Source: Agarilytica rhodophyticola
GTDB taxonomy: Bacteria; Pseudomonadota; Gammaproteobacteria; Pseudomonadales; Cellvibrionaceae
DNA: 64,000 nucleotides
Direction: 5' to 3'
Assembly: GCF_002157225.2 (NCBI RefSeq)
Contig: NZ_CP020038.1
Coordinates: 2,820,501-2,884,500, forward strand
Part shown: piece after piece, positions 33,220-39,936 of the stretch
How positions within the stretch are numbered: the first letter of the stretch is position 1
Layout of the letters: each line of letters starts with the position of its first letter
Made by a program: the position numbers and the translations under genes
The notes under the pieces: generated by a model
Seen by the model: only the letters and a program-made list of their open reading frames with translations
Told to the model about the DNA's origin: nothing
The model's database searches: none

Positions 33220-34623
33220 ATGTCTCAAGGTGAAATACCTATTTTATTAGAGCCGAATCAAGAAGAGAGAAAAGTTGATTTTGCTGGCGACTTTCTCTTT
33301 TTAAAAGAGTCGGCGAGACCTGTTAAGGTTATTGTTGACGGCCAGCCGATTACTATGCGCGAAGGTGATAAGCGCGTGTTTAGAAGAAGTGAACCGGGAA
33401 GGCTTGCTTTTGATAACTTTCAAGTGACAAATAAAAGTGATCTATCATTACGTTGTGTTTTTGTAGCGGGAACCGGTGACTATAATAGTCAAGTTGTGAG
33501 GGGTGAATTTACTGTATCTGAAAATATTCAAACGACAGCTCTGGCAACAAATTCTCTCCCGCTCAATATTAAAAAGACCTTTGGTTATGTTGATATAAAT
33601 CCTGTTAGTTATGAAAGAAATGAGGAATTTATAAGGACGCAAGTATTTGATACTGTTAACGAAGGTTTACATAGGTCATTGTTTTTATTTGATGGCTTTG
33701 TTTGGAGTGTGACTAAAACGCAATTAAGAAAATTTTCTATGTCTGGTGCGCTTCTTGAATCTCATGCGATTAGCGGTGATGGAGATGCTTTTGATAGTGG
33801 TCTTAGGGGTGCAGCTGTAACGCCTGAGGGCATTGTATACATTGTTGGGCTTCGCGTTATTGGTAGGTTAGACATGAACACCAAGTCATATAGTGTTATA
33901 TATACGAATCCGGCAGGCCAGTTTTTCCCTGAGATAGGGGTTGCTTATAGAAATGGTTTTTTAACACTTATAAGGCGTTCTGATTCGAATAGTATTACTT
34001 TTTCAAGATTTAATGTGTTAACGCTAGAGATAGAAGATGTTGTTGTCGGTGTAACTGAGAGCAATGGTGCTTTAAATCGATTAAGTTATTATGAAAAAGA
34101 TGATTTGTTGCTTATCGGAAATTCGACGGGGCGCACTTTTTTCTATGATGCAGAAACGCTGCAATATACAGGTGTTCAAAAACTACTAGCAATTAACTCA
34201 CCTCTATATGTTCCAGAGTTTAATTTACAAGTTGAATATATTACTGATGCTTATGTGTTTCGTGTGATTGATCCTGTTGATTATGTCGCGAGGCTTTATA
34301 TCCAGGATGGGAGTGACGTAACGACAAGAAATGAATTTTTGATATCGGGCGATGCTGTGTTTTTTCCACGTGGCGATAAGACTGTCATGCGTGGAGAAAT
34401 ATTAAAATATATATTGCAGGGGTTGTCGGCAGGTAGAGTTATTGAAGAAAACTATATGGATTATGTTACGTCGCTAACGTATTCGGATGGTAGAAATAAT
34501 ATTGTAAAGAGTGCCGGTTCTGCGACGTTTTCTTATCGTGGTTATAGCGATGTTGGTGAGCTTATATTGCCGTCTGAAGTTGAAGTAAAAATTATGCCTG
34601 AGTATTTAACAGAGGTAGTGTGA
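33220..34623 (+). CDS. Putative spike / receptor-binding protein
   Basis: 467 aa, the largest structural-block product. It starts with a beta-rich N-terminal domain (about residues 1-110). A middle region follows with repeated SLFLFDGFVWSV, RGAAVTPEGIVYIVGLRV and YRNGFLTLIRRSDSN segments, spaced like propeller blades, and the C-terminus is beta-rich. PM2 places its spike P1 among late genes; this is the best candidate here by size and position. No detectable motif for host binding. Confidence 0.55.
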   Translation: MSQGEIPILLEPNQEERKVDFAGDFLFLKESARPVKVIVDGQPITMREGDKRVFRRSEPGRLAFDNFQVTNKSDLSLRCVFVAGTGDYNSQVVRGEFTVSENIQTTALATNSLPLNIKKTFGYVDINPVSYERNEEFIRTQVFDTVNEGLHRSLFLFDGFVWSVTKTQLRKFSMSGALLESHAISGDGDAFDSGLRGAAVTPEGIVYIVGLRVIGRLDMNTKSYSVIYTNPAGQFFPEIGVAYRNGFLTLIRRSDSNSITFSRFNVLTLEIEDVVVGVTESNGALNRLSYYEKDDLLLIGNSTGRTFFYDAETLQYTGVQKLLAINSPLYVPEFNLQVEYITDAYVFRVIDPVDYVARLYIQDGSDVTTRNEFLISGDAVFFPRGDKTVMRGEILKYILQGLSAGRVIEENYMDYVTSLTYSDGRNNIVKSAGSATFSYRGYSDVGELILPSEVEVKIMPEYLTEVV

Positions 34624-35102
34624 TGAGTGCATTTGTAATTGTGGGTCGTTTTTTTGATTTTTTAAATGAGTTGTTTGGTGGTAGCGAGGTTATAAATGTG
34701 AATGATAATAGGCCTCGCGGGATTAGAAATAATAATCCTGGTAATTTGGTGTTAACTGCAATTCCATGGCGCGGGAAAATTCCGCCGTCAAGAAATACAG
34801 ATGGGCGTTTTGAGCAATTCGAAAATCCGATTTATGGAATTCGTGCGCTATTTATGGATTTGCGTAACGATGTGCGTAAGGGGACTAATACTATCGAAAA
34901 ATTAATTAACGAGTTTGCGCCGTCTCACGAAAATAATACTGGTGCATATATTATGGCTGTCGCCAATGCTGTTGGTAAATCTTCAGATGTGCCGATAGAT
35001 GAGGATGATTATGTCCCGTTGATAAATGCAATTATTCGCCATGAGAATGGTGTTAATCCATTTACTGACGAAGATATAAAGGAGGCTATTGCGTTGGCAT
35101 GA
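34623..35102 (+). CDS. Muramidase-like virion protein
   Basis: 159 aa. RPRGIRNNNPGNL is the signature of a phage family often annotated as structural P5-like lytic proteins. It is followed by RFEQFENPIYGIRALFMDLRN, typical of lysozyme-like/transglycosylase-related domains. A short hydrophobic start could associate with the membrane. Likely peptidoglycan-cutting for entry or exit. Overlaps the spike candidate by one base. Confidence 0.72.
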   Translation: MSAFVIVGRFFDFLNELFGGSEVINVNDNRPRGIRNNNPGNLVLTAIPWRGKIPPSRNTDGRFEQFENPIYGIRALFMDLRNDVRKGTNTIEKLINEFAPSHENNTGAYIMAVANAVGKSSDVPIDEDDYVPLINAIIRHENGVNPFTDEDIKEAIALA

Positions 35103-35362
35103 AATTATTAACAAAAGAGCATCGTTCGTTGTTGATAACCGTCGGGGTTATTGGTGCTGGGATTTTATACATTGGTGGGCGTGGTGCTGGTGCGGTTGCT
35201 CGATCTGCCGCCGCCGCTGGTAACGCTGTAAATCCAACGAACCGTCATAATATATTTGCTGAAGGTGTCAATTCCATTGGTGATATTTTGAATGATGGCG
35301 TAGATGACGACGATTTTTCGTTAGGTGCGTGGATATTCGATATTACGCATCCGGGGCAATAA
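35099..35362 (+). CDS. Small membrane protein
   Basis: 87 aa with one hydrophobic helix near the N-terminus (LLITVGVIGAGILYIGG), a Gly/Ala-rich linker and an acidic end (DDGVDDDDF-like). Start overlaps the muramidase-like stop (ATGA). A virion membrane or lysis accessory role is possible; no family recognised. Confidence 0.57.
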   Translation: MKLLTKEHRSLLITVGVIGAGILYIGGRGAGAVARSAAAAGNAVNPTNRHNIFAEGVNSIGDILNDGVDDDDFSLGAWIFDITHPGQ

Positions 35363-35656: not shown

Positions 35657-35707
35657 TGGCTCCGCCTGCTGGGCTCGAACCAGCGACCCAATGATTAACA
35701 GTCATTT
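35657..35707. repeat. attR (tRNA-Asn 3' part, reconstituted)
   Basis: 51 bp identical to 23138-23188. Here it forms the 3' part of the intact tRNA-Asn, so the phage-borne copy restored the gene on insertion. The element boundary lies within this repeat. Confidence 0.93.
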
Positions 35708-35732
35708 GCTCTACCAACTGAGCTAAGGCGGA
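35657..35732 (-). tRNA. tRNA-Asn (GTT)
   Basis: 76 nt on the minus strand, starting TCCGCCTTAGCTC and ending AGGCGGAGCCA with encoded CCA. The acceptor stem pairs fully. Anticodon loop CTGTTAA gives GTT. It is the insertion target of the prophage, and its 3' part is supplied by attR. Confidence 0.96.
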
Positions 35733-35874
35733 TCTGCAAGTGGGCTATTGCCCGAAAGAGCGCGTATAATATACGTCGCTTTTGTGAGTGTCAACTTTAA
35801 TTTTATTTAAATTTCAGCATCTAACTCTTTGTTTTTAATCGGTTTTCTAAAACTTGAACAAACTGATTAAAACT

Positions 35875-35951
<77 letters not shown>

Positions 35952-36059: not shown

Positions 36060-38600
36060 TTACAAATTGCCGAGTGCTGCTATACCCAGAGCTGCTGAAG
36101 ATACGATTTGAGCAACACTGCTCCAAAGTGTCAGTGAATCCACCTTGGTTGTATTAATAGGCACTACAATGGTATCCCCAGGCTGTAGAGCTTTGGAGTT
36201 AGATTTAAACCATGCTGAGCTTGCTGGGGCGTAAACTCGACCATTGGCCTTTACAACGTAGATACGTTTCTTATCTGCATTTTGTTTAGTGCCGCCAGAC
36301 ATGTCGATGTAGTCTTTAATATCTAGCCGTGCATCATAAAAGTGTGATGTGGAGTGCTGAATCTCTCCCACGACGGTAACGGATGGTTTAAACCGGGGAA
36401 TTTCTAACTTATCACCGTCGGCGAGCTCAAAGTCGAATTTTTTAGGTCGATCTAATATTGTGGGAAGGTCAATAACCATACGTCCGAGCGCTTTCGTACT
36501 TTCGATGCTGTTGAGTATTTGATCGGCCTCAGCCTTATCTATCTCTTTTTTGGCTGCTGACTTCTCTAAATTTGCAGTAGCTAGATCGCTGGCGATTTTA
36601 ACTTTGAGATTCTCTAATCTTTCTTCTTCTAAAAGTCGTAATTCTTTACGCGAAAAAATTGCACCTTCTGGGTAAGCGTAGGGTGTCAGTCCTCCAGCTC
36701 TTTCGATAACGCTTAAGAGTGTTTCTCCTGGTAATAGGTCATAGACGCCCGGATAGATGACTTCACCTGTTAGCTCCACTGACTCTCTTTTTTGCCAGAG
36801 GGGAATTTGTTTAATACGTAAAGTATCACCTGCTTTTAATTGTGGGTTTTCCATTGTAAGGTCAAAGTCTTTTCGCAGGTCTACCCGTTCTCTATTCTCA
36901 TTCAGGTCGTAGCGTGTTATTTCAGCTCCTGAGCCTTGGGCGCTTTCCGTAAGTCCTCCTGCTAAGCTAATAAGCTCCCTCGCACTCATATTTCCCGTAG
37001 CTAAAGGGTATTCGCCAGGAAAGCGCACGCTGCCATAGATACGGATAGTCTGTTGGCGTTGGCTGAAGTTGGACTGAACTTTTAGTCGATCTACCAGTTC
37101 TTTTAGTATCTCGACTCTATTGGTGTCGTATTCAAAAAGGGTTATCACGTCACGTGGCTGTAGTAGAGGGTCTTCTGGCCCTTGTGGTGAGGCAAATGCT
37201 TGCTGAGGAGAAAATAAGTGTACTTGTGTTCTGCGAGTAATCTTTTCTTCTCGTTGAATAAGTCCGATGACAATATCGGGGTTGGGCAGTAATTCGTCCG
37301 CGTTGGGAACAATGTCGGTAAAGCGCATAAACTTGCGCCATGCAAAGTCGCCTTCGCGTTTTACATGCCCTTCGAGTGTTATCGTGTCGTTAACGGTTTC
37401 TAGGGTGGGTTGTATTTGAATAATATCGGCATCATTGACTTTAAAGCTTCTGCCTGATGGACTGGAGATATCGATATTAACAAGGGTTTTTTCTCCCGAT
37501 CGTGAAATCCTTTCAATTCTTGATGCGGGAGCATAGGCGTTGGCTAATAGTCCACCCGCTAGCTGTATCACATCAGCTACTGTTCTCTCGTTTTTTAGCT
37601 CATATATAGCTGGGCGCTTAACAGCTCCAGAAATGCCTGTTGTTTTGCCTACTGGTGGAATAAATATAACATCGCCGGGAAGAAGACGGGAATCATCGCT
37701 TGTATCCCCTCTTAAAAGAAGGTCATATAAGTCCAATCTGGCGACAACCTTTCCAGCCCGTTTAAGCTGGATATTTCTCAAAGAGCCGATTTCGGTGATG
37801 CCGCCACTGGCAAATATGGCGTTTGTCATGGTAGAGAGAGAACTCACAACATAGGAGCCTGGGATTTCAGCTTCACCCAGCACAAAGACTCTAACAGTTC
37901 TCAATGGGCCCATGGTGATAGAGCTCTTAACGCCTATCATTTGTTCATTGACCACATTGGTAAGTTTTTCCTGCATAGCCTCGAACGGTAAGCCTGCAAG
38001 AGAAATAGGCCCAATATCTGGGAATTGGATCTGACCTTCACGATTCAGTTTCAGGGTATGGGTGGCGTTCTCTTTGCCGTATAGTTGGATGACAATGGTG
38101 TCTCCCGGACCTAACAAATAATTTACCGGGATTGGAATATCTTCTGCCGGTGCGAAGGTCTCTGCGCCATAGTTAAAAATATTATGGCCAAACAATTTGA
38201 GTTCATCTTCCTCCTCACTACTTTCAAAACCCTCGAGTAAGCCATTCACGCCACTTAGGCCTTCCAAATCATTGGGGTCAATATTATCTAGATCAAACCC
38301 GTTAGGTGGAATTTGTCCACCTTGTAAGTTGCGGTTAGAGTTTCTGCCACTTTTTGTTAAATCTCGTCTATTTCCTGAGATTGGTTCTGCTTCTGTTTCG
38401 TCACCGCCGTTTTCTTCAAGTAAGCCATCTAAATCAGACAAGTCTACGCCGAAGGATCTTGCCAGGGCTTGTTGTTGTGCCGGGGGTAGTCTTTTGAACC
38501 GGTCAATCTGTTCTTGCGTTGGCGCTTGTGCGTAAACAGTGGATATTGAAAATAACGTGAATAAGATAGATGCAACAATCTTCTGGATAAGGGGCTTCAT
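36060..38600 (-). CDS. Large Wza-type outer-membrane polysaccharide export protein (multi-SLBB)
   Basis: About 846 aa, far longer than E. coli Wza (379 aa). The secretory signal is MKPLIQKIVASILFTLFSIS...AQA, which sets the start at 38600. An in-frame ATG at 38708 adds 36 residues with no signal character. The Poly_export domain is seen at YLLGPGDTIVIQLYGKENAT, followed by several SLBB repeats (PGSYVVSS, PGVYDLLPG, FPGEYPLATG types). A C-terminal helix closes it. Likely exports capsule or O-antigen-like polymer. No wzb/wzc partner in the window. Confidence 0.87.
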   Translation of the reverse strand: MKPLIQKIVASILFTLFSISTVYAQAPTQEQIDRFKRLPPAQQQALARSFGVDLSDLDGLLEENGGDETEAEPISGNRRDLTKSGRNSNRNLQGGQIPPNGFDLDNIDPNDLEGLSGVNGLLEGFESSEEEDELKLFGHNIFNYGAETFAPAEDIPIPVNYLLGPGDTIVIQLYGKENATHTLKLNREGQIQFPDIGPISLAGLPFEAMQEKLTNVVNEQMIGVKSSITMGPLRTVRVFVLGEAEIPGSYVVSSLSTMTNAIFASGGITEIGSLRNIQLKRAGKVVARLDLYDLLLRGDTSDDSRLLPGDVIFIPPVGKTTGISGAVKRPAIYELKNERTVADVIQLAGGLLANAYAPASRIERISRSGEKTLVNIDISSPSGRSFKVNDADIIQIQPTLETVNDTITLEGHVKREGDFAWRKFMRFTDIVPNADELLPNPDIVIGLIQREEKITRRTQVHLFSPQQAFASPQGPEDPLLQPRDVITLFEYDTNRVEILKELVDRLKVQSNFSQRQQTIRIYGSVRFPGEYPLATGNMSARELISLAGGLTESAQGSGAEITRYDLNENRERVDLRKDFDLTMENPQLKAGDTLRIKQIPLWQKRESVELTGEVIYPGVYDLLPGETLLSVIERAGGLTPYAYPEGAIFSRKELRLLEEERLENLKVKIASDLATANLEKSAAKKEIDKAEADQILNSIESTKALGRMVIDLPTILDRPKKFDFELADGDKLEIPRFKPSVTVVGEIQHSTSHFYDARLDIKDYIDMSGGTKQNADKKRIYVVKANGRVYAPASSAWFKSNSKALQPGDTIVVPINTTKVDSLTLWSSVAQIVSSAALGIAALGNL

Positions 38601-39046
38601 AAATAAATTTTGGTTTAGGGGGTTGTCTGAAATGGCCATGAATATAAAGTCGCTGCTTTTACGCAACCTATTGAAGTCTAATACTTTCTTTGTTTGCAAT
38701 CCTGTCATGCACTAAAATCAATCTCCTAAATCAATATGTATTGTCGTCATTGAATTTAATCTTGTGAGCTCTTTTTTGTTTGTAAGGTTGGAGGTCTTTC
38801 ATCAACCCAAAAAGATGGTAGAGCATCCGGCACCTGGTTCAACGGCAGAGTAGTCTATGGCTTTAAGCCCGCTATAATAACGAATAAATAGCTTACTTTC
38901 TTCTATAAACCCCTAATATTTGTAACAATTTGAGCGTTTTTATGGTAACGCTTTCTAAGTTTCGGGTGCGCTGTCGAGAGAGTAGGGTGATTATCGTTGG
39001 TAGGAATAGTTTAATTAGTGGTGATGAAATTGTTATTTTAGGTGGC
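38601..39046. other. Leader/intergenic region between export gene and small RNA 2
   Basis: About 450 bp without a clear gene. It should hold the promoter and 5' leader of the export gene (minus strand). I found no ops/JUMPStart core. A short GCGTT/AACGC inverted repeat lies near 38935. No strong terminator separates it from the upstream small RNA region. Confidence 0.4.
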
Positions 39047-39238
39047 TATTGAGGTGCTTTGCGCACCTCAATAATTCGGTGTTCCATAACTTCTTTCCCT
39101 GAATTTTTAATCTTCCTGATAAATTGTTCGTCCTAGTAGATCCTTCTATCTGTGATCTTCCTAATTAACCGAAAAGAATATGAAGTTTCCCTTGACCCGC
39201 CATGGCCTGCTGACTTCCGTGTGAATGTCCCTATATGC
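39047..39238 (-). ncRNA. Candidate CsrB/RsmZ-type small RNA 2
   Basis: About 190 nt. Read on the minus strand it carries some nine GGA motifs in AGGA, AAGGA or GGGA contexts, one in a small loop (AGAT-AGAAGG-ATCT). It ends at the hairpin TATTGAGGTGC-GCAAA-GCACCTCAATA (39047-39073). Upstream are a GATAAT -10 (39249-39244) and a GacA-type box 45 bp further. Unlike RNA 1 the final hairpin has no T run, so the 3' end is uncertain. Expected to bind and titrate CsrA/RsmA. Confidence 0.6.
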
Positions 39239-39293
39239 CAGGTATTATCACTTTGTAATTAATTGAGTAGAAGTCGCTATTGTCTGATTTGTT

Positions 39294-39311
39294 TGTGAGA
39301 TATCTCTCACA
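39294..39311. promoter_or_regulatory. GacA/UvrY-type activator box (small RNA 2)
   Basis: TGTGAG-N6-CTCACA, an inverted repeat close to the published GacA upstream element TGTAAG-N6-CTTACA. It lies 45 bp from the GATAAT -10 at 39249-39244, the same spacing as in the neighbouring small RNA gene. Confidence 0.7.
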
Positions 39312-39361
39312 ATAATGAAGTGAATGAGCTTTCCCATTTTTGTTGGGATTGTCTCATGGAT

Positions 39362-39398
39362 AAAAAAAATCCGAGGGGGGATACCCCTCGGATTTTTT
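39362..39398 (-). terminator. Terminator of small RNA 1
   Basis: AATCCGAGGGG / CCCCTCGGATT stem with a 5-nt loop, flanked by T runs on both strands. It ends the GGA-rich transcript on the minus strand and would also work on the plus strand. Confidence 0.9.
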
Positions 39399-39568
39399 CG
39401 CTTTTCACCTTAAGTCCTTTCCGTGGTGAGATGCCTTCCTGGCAAACCCATATCCTTATGGTGAGTGCTTTGCTCCTTCTGCTATGATCATCCTGAGTCT
39501 AAAGCAGAATTTTTTTCCTCCTTATGACCTTTCCTGGTCGACGTGCTTCCTTGTTTACCTCCTTGTTG
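39362..39568 (-). ncRNA. CsrB/RsmZ-type small RNA 1
   Basis: About 205 nt on the minus strand with eleven GGA motifs. Several sit in hairpin loops as CsrA prefers: GACC-AGGAAA-GGTC, CCATA-AGGA-TATGG and TGCC-AGGAA-GGCA. CAGGATG, the CsrB consensus unit, also occurs. The RNA ends in a strong terminator (39362-39398). A GATAAT -10 (39580-39575) places the start near 39568, and a GacA-type box lies 45 bp upstream of it. Expected to sequester CsrA/RsmA and so release its mRNA targets. No open frame of note overlaps it. Confidence 0.82.
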
Positions 39569-39624
39569 ATAAACATTATCTACAAATCGCTTTTGGCGCG
39601 ATAGTCGACATTGGCGTTTGTTTT

Positions 39625-39642
39625 TGTAGGATATATCTCACA
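39625..39642. promoter_or_regulatory. GacA/UvrY-type activator box (small RNA 1)
   Basis: On the minus strand TGTGAG-ATATAT-CCTACA, matching TGTRAG-N6-CYTACA at every defined position. It lies 45 bp upstream of the -10 of the GGA-rich RNA. This is the classic arrangement for rsmY/rsmZ/csrB promoters. Confidence 0.8.
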
Positions 39643-39936
39643 AAATAATTTTTTAAGTGTCCGAATGAGTGGTTGAAGAGTGCAAAGTGCCTATATGGCC
39701 TGATGTATTCTTTCTTTATTTTGGCTAAATTGTTTCAAATTTGCACTATGTGATCTGATTTGTGCCTGATGACCATTTAATTAAAATAAAGATGCATAAC
39801 TATGTTGATCACTGAGATCTACTGTGGCACAATTGCGTCCCTTCTTGAGAGGGAGTTAATGAAATCTATAGGTTTCTTCTTATAAATCAATAGGTTACAA
39901 TGCTCTCCAGATAGTATGAGTTAAATGGCATTTTGC

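Follow-up and report, generated by a model that had tools for sequence, protein, structure and literature searches.

The window, a 64,000-nt stretch of Agarilytica rhodophyticola DNA, was found to carry two neighbouring minus-strand genes for candidate small RNAs of the Csr/Rsm type, whose promoters are fixed in geometry. RNA1 would be a CsrA sponge and RNA2 a weaker, diverged relative, a reading to which we give a probability of about 0.88. It is carried by the two promoters, by the homology of the transcribed 5′ domain across Cellvibrionaceae genera, by the CsrA and GacA genes of the genome and by the exposed GGA motifs of RNA1. As judged from sequence, both RNAs appear to be of the Csr/Rsm kind and to belong to a family that extends across the Cellvibrionaceae, outside the curated Rfam families. 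The features are listed in Table 1.

Table 1. Features of the two RNA genes and related loci (window coordinates, except those marked C1)
Feature	Position	Strand	Basis
GacA/UvrY-type box of RNA1, TGTGAGATATATCCTACA	39625..39642	-	sequence; relatives-only matrix 62.1 bits; R1 E 1.2e-18 in genome
Linker/-35-region element CGACTAT, RNA1 promoter (consensus GCSACT)	39601..39607	-	alignment columns 35-40, 23 relatives
-10 GATAAT of RNA1	39575..39580	-	sequence; position fixed in relatives
RNA1, putative CsrA-sponge-type sRNA, about 210 nt	39361..39569	-	start inferred from -10; R2, Rfam CsrC sub-threshold, GGA exposure
Family hairpin GACC-AGGAAA-GGTC of RNA1	39526..39539	-	GRCC-N6-GGYC in 17/19 sequences
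Intrinsic terminator of RNA1	39361..39398	-	16-bp stem, T8
GacA/UvrY-type box of RNA2, perfect palindrome TGTGAGAGATATCTCACA	39294..39311	-	sequence; relatives-only matrix 47.4 bits
Linker/-35-region element CGACTTC, RNA2 promoter	39270..39276	-	same alignment columns as RNA1
-10 GATAAT of RNA2	39244..39249	-	sequence
RNA2, about 190 nt, 9 GGA motifs; 3′ end uncertain	39047..39238	-	R2 model
Family hairpin GGCC-ATGGCG-GGTC of RNA2, loop without GGA	39194..39207	-	alignment, fold
Perfect hairpin, likely 3′ end of RNA2, without U-tract	39047..39073	-	sequence, terminator scan
Three-way-junction RNA loci (L181, L182; L231, L221)	C1:815611-815752, C1:3073104-3073245	-	outside window

The two promoters lie 331 bp apart and follow the same plan, an 18-bp box and then GATAAT. 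The equal spacing claimed in the earlier note was confirmed, the distance from box to GATAAT being 62 bp start to start, with 44 bases between, in both promoters. A matrix of 74 columns was built without gaps from 23 promoters of relatives, with the window sequence left out. Over the 64-kb window it gave 62.1 bits at 39642 and 47.4 bits at 39311, the third-best minus-strand site reaching 14.2 bits and the best plus-strand site –2.5 bits. Conservation among the 23 relatives was highest in the box, at the G of column 28, in GCSACT (columns 35–40) and in the –10. Because the relatives were found partly via R1, a sequence-only model of five promoters that include both from the window, the sequences of the matrix set are independent of the window, whereas their selection is not entirely so; R1 was itself trained on the RNA1 promoter, and its E-value there is not independent. 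The RNA1 and RNA2 promoters are far beyond chance. The simple box pattern alone was uninformative, since it gave 13 matches in the genome against 10 for a reversed control. It was the relatives-only scores, together with the presence of GacA in the genome, that sustained the claim of GacA-type promoters.

RNA1 contains 12 GGA motifs, 11 of them ahead of the terminator. This number was equalled by 4 of 200 dinucleotide shuffles, and the exposure of the GGAs in the predicted fold by none of 200. R2, which models the transcribed 5′ domain and was trained on 17 relatives with the window sequences left out, matched RNA1 with 48.1 bits (E 2.1e-13 in the window and 2.3e-11 in the genome). The strong terminator noted before was found at 39398–39361, with a long stem followed by T8. 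Judged by its family, RNA1 is of the standard, convincing CsrA sponge type, for which CsrA binding is predicted.

RNA2 was matched by R2 with 31.3 bits (E 3.8e-8 in the window and 4.3e-6 in the genome), and RNA1 and RNA2 were the two best matches in the whole genome; the next match in the window scored 13.3 bits. Of the two transcripts, both described earlier as GGA-dense, RNA1 stood out from the shuffles and RNA2 did not, its GGA number being reached by 27 of 200. GGAs in several hairpin loops were likewise predicted for RNA1 (at 39534, 39493, 39455 and 39439), and the claim was weak for RNA2, with a loop GGA mainly at 39116. Its GGAs were equally exposed in 173 of 200 shuffles, by a noisy test that several clear relatives fail too; failure in this test does not exclude a sponge role. 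The function of RNA2 is less certain than that of RNA1, and it is probably a sponge that is weaker or used differently. The GGA-richest 200-nt stretches on the minus strand of the window were RNA1 (12) and RNA2 (9), the next having 7. The GGA count alone is not decisive, because plus-strand windows of this length reach 10. A coding check revealed no long ORF in either RNA.

Homologues were recovered from many relatives. The strong matches of R1 to members on which it had not been trained included the second copy of G018 (9e-15), G067 (1.4e-11), G020 (8e-11), G080, G063 and others, mostly within the same family; beyond an E-value of about 0.001 the matches are uncertain. Behind most R1 matches the intergenic DNA could encode an RNA rich in GGA, and often a terminator as well, while some had few GGAs and a few preceded protein genes. 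Two kinds of RNA were found behind the promoters, a long one resembling RNA1 and a short one of ∼110 nt that ends in ATCCTGTGAG and a terminator. The common 5′ domain of the long RNAs reads roughly AACAAGGAcGTACACacGGAAGT...GRCC-N6-GGYCAAnGGAAGCGCC, and 17 of 19 sequences keep the hairpin GRCC-N6-GGYC, whose second pair is GU, AU or GC. R2 also matched genera outside its training set, e.g. G006, G022 and G024. The test of GGA exposure was passed by only some clear members. A sequence-only BLAST with the region recovered G018 and G025 as real members; a match in G049 looked like chance. The assignment to the Csr/Rsm type made in the earlier note was thus backed by homology to a model built without the window and by the CsrA and GacA genes of the genome.

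R2 matches were closely spaced, at 69–252 nt, in loci of G006 (L206), G012 (L207) and G022 (L193), and this spacing suggests that a putative CsrA-binding module is repeated within one RNA in these three genomes.

The weaker features of RNA2 leave room for other readings. It could be a copy in decay whose promoter is still intact, transcribed but binding little CsrA. Its GGAs are fewer and buried, its 5′ domain scores 31 bits against 48 for RNA1, and a U-tract is missing at its end. However, the UAS of RNA2 is a perfect palindrome in an intact promoter, its 5′ domain is 70% identical to the G067 member, and CsrA sites are poorly predicted by folding in isolation; we consider decay improbable. 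A further reading keeps RNA1 as the CsrA sponge and denies RNA2 this role: transcription from the RNA2 promoter would run on, as a long leader, into the export gene at 36060–38708, which would then be a direct GacA target. RNA2 and this gene are on the same strand, and between RNA2, whose 3′ hairpin has no U-tract and whose GGAs are unexposed in the fold, and the longest reading frame of the gene the scan found no terminator; its one weak site, at 38667, falls within that frame. GacA-type promoters also precede protein genes in some relatives (L155, L166, L162 and L184). Nevertheless, RNA2 has kept the sRNA 5′ domain (E 4.3e-6), its 3′ hairpin lies ∼340 nt away from the ORF, and an export gene was not seen beside the RNAs at the relatives' loci examined, which makes a leader quite doubtful.

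The sequence TGTGAG-N6-CTCACA looks like a CRP site, so that the palindromes might be sites of another regulator (CRP/FNR-type, TGTGA-N6-TCACA) and the GGA richness might be due to chance. For the whole family, the recurring architecture contradicts this: the fixed spacing from box to –10, GCSACT and the GGA-rich RNAs recur together across many genera, and the homology of the RNAs does not depend on the promoter. A CRP/FNR origin is accordingly very improbable, and two Csr/Rsm-type genes, with RNA2 as the weaker one, remain the preferred reading.

The genome encodes one CsrA of 77 aa. The C-terminal tail of this protein (L001 1501–1731) is rich in Gln, His and Glu (QREKQEQQHQHQQQQHEEEEEQQGNS). 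The best GacA/UvrY match was a receiver-LuxR protein that scored 278 bits (cut-off 280), and its gene is followed immediately by uvrC and a pgsA-like gene (both named by eye), the classical place of gacA. Several hybrid kinases matched, none of them above the BarA cut-off, so that no one of them could be picked as the GacS orthologue. Transcription of RNA1 and RNA2 would be expected to depend on GacA: phosphorylated GacA would bind the 18-bp box, which lies about 65 bp ahead of the transcription start, and activate a sigma-70 promoter of fixed geometry. RNA1, and probably RNA2, would then bind several CsrA dimers via GGAs beside and inside short hairpins, and the sequestration would free CsrA-repressed mRNAs, as expected from the Csr/Rsm family; the general mechanism of CsrA sequestration by such RNAs has been described (PMC7652899). 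RNA2, having the same promoter and 5′ domain and fewer exposed sites, would act as a diverged relative.

No Rfam family scored above gathering in the window or among the relatives tested. The search with the CsrB, RsmY and RsmZ covariance models suggested in the earlier note yielded nothing above gathering, and RNA1 had only a sub-threshold match to CsrC (RF00084; 22.5 bits, E 1.7e-4 in a 1.1-kb search, gathering score 61). RsmZ (RF00166) and RsmY (RF00195) had no window match at gathering score, and none was listed up to E 10 in 38800–39900, where only the best match of a clan was kept; the RsmZ model had no match in the genome. Among the relatives, sub-threshold matches were obtained for G004 (CsrB, 34.6 bits, E 5e-6) and G049 (RsmY, E 0.012). 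Matches of the CsrC and RsmZ models across 58 genomes were mostly terminators, yet they led to real members (G004).

The known systems resemble the two RNAs in part. The UvrY site of E. coli csrB, TGTGAGAGATCTCTTACA (PMC4682653), matches both boxes and nearly equals that of RNA2, and CsrB and CsrC (RF00018 and RF00084) likewise have many GGAs in loops and single strands and a terminator; their models match RNA1 and the G004 relative below threshold. In contrast, the box of csrB is centred near –183 (PMC4682653) and those found here near –65, and the GRCC-N6-GGYC 5′ domain is not the CsrB repeat. Pseudomonas RsmX, RsmY and RsmZ also have the GacA UAS directly upstream of the –10 and form small genome families, but the RsmY and RsmZ models do not match RNA1 or RNA2. 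Neighbouring or duplicated Csr/Rsm RNA genes have been described in P. brassicacearum (tandem rsmX-1 and rsmX-2, PMC7911923), Shewanella (CsrB1 and CsrB2, PMC3171408) and Vibrio (csrB copies, PMC6262261), those of the latter two being UvrY/VarA-dependent. Shewanella CsrB is about 420 nt long, unlike the about 190–210 nt here, and the CsrB model does not match the window. We found no described Csr RNA in the literature for Teredinibacter, Saccharophagus or Cellvibrio. The present loci would place a Gac-Csr switch, of which we found no description, in a member of the Cellvibrionaceae that has a large genome and is related to shipworm symbionts, and the promoter and RNA models detect candidate Csr RNAs where Rfam does not.

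The earlier note had regarded the two genes as tandem duplicates, which was not supported in the sense of a recent copy. Between RNA1 and RNA2 the identity of the 5′ domains is only 49%, whereas RNA1 reaches 68% with G080/G063 and RNA2 70% with G067. The note also called the two redundant, which they may be, although RNA2 looks the weaker. Since each RNA is nearer to members in other genera than to its neighbour, this short alignment suggests that they did not arise by a recent tandem duplication; rsmX-1 and rsmX-2 of P. brassicacearum, by comparison, are 75% identical (PMC7911923), against only about 50% for RNA1 and RNA2. The equal promoter geometry is a family-wide property and does not prove duplication. 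G018 and G092 also have two copies near each other, at distances of 1.9 kb and about 0.7 kb. As a natural pair of unequal putative sponges with matched promoters, RNA1 and RNA2 would offer a system for testing the redundancy of sibling Csr RNAs.

Polysaccharide export genes had been said to adjoin the RNAs. One such gene is present downstream on the same strand (36060–38708, with Poly_export and SLBB domains), not several. The neighbourhood is weak evidence and gives no support for the sponge interpretation that had been argued from it, because at the relatives' loci examined other genes flank the RNAs: a penicillin-binding-protein-like gene and nadC in G018 and, by eye, a response regulator in G092, G031, G006 and G012 and another gene in G080, G019 and G004. 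The location is not conserved either, since no GGA cluster with a GacA box was found upstream of tig in 37 relatives (GTDB genomes); the best relatives of the trigger factor were in Teredinibacter (73%) and other Cellvibrionaceae. Three plus-strand ORFs (467, 160 and 87 aa) at 33220–35362 had no Pfam match and lie beside two tRNA genes (35660–35951); they are possibly part of an integrated element.

Two further GacA-type promoters were found on the minus strand of the genome, at C1:815752 and C1:3073245, each followed by a ∼62-nt RNA that is predicted to fold into a three-way junction. The R3 model finds this RNA in several relatives, mostly twice per genome (G000, G006, G014, G030 and G067); most of the strong cases are preceded by a GacA-type box, full or partial, and the RNA has no Rfam match. 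In its alignment, which was fitted to the structure, so that the covariation counts lean to it, 10 of 18 pairs were changed on both sides and 94% of cells were paired, which was reached by 0 of 500 shuffles; slid versions of the alignment were at most 60% paired. With no more than one or two GGAs, it is unlikely to be a sponge; in Pseudomonas, RgsA carries a single GGA and was unable to stand in for the sponges (PMC2375449).

Tentatively, and at somewhat less than even odds, the Cellvibrionaceae may have a Csr-RNA family of their own, which would consist of a ∼70-nt module AGGGA..ACACGGAAGT..GRCC-N6-GGYC-AANGGAAGCG that can recur within an RNA, behind a fixed GacA promoter with GCSACT, the same promoter class driving the covarying, non-sponge three-way-junction RNA. 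If this is true, the direct GacA regulon is wider than the sponge genes. GacA-type promoters were also observed before a ComEA-like protein, identified by eye (L155 in G012 and L166 in G084), and before an unnamed conserved protein (L162 in G032 and L184 in G001), each in two genomes; such promoters before protein genes suggest that GacA may have direct targets besides small RNAs.
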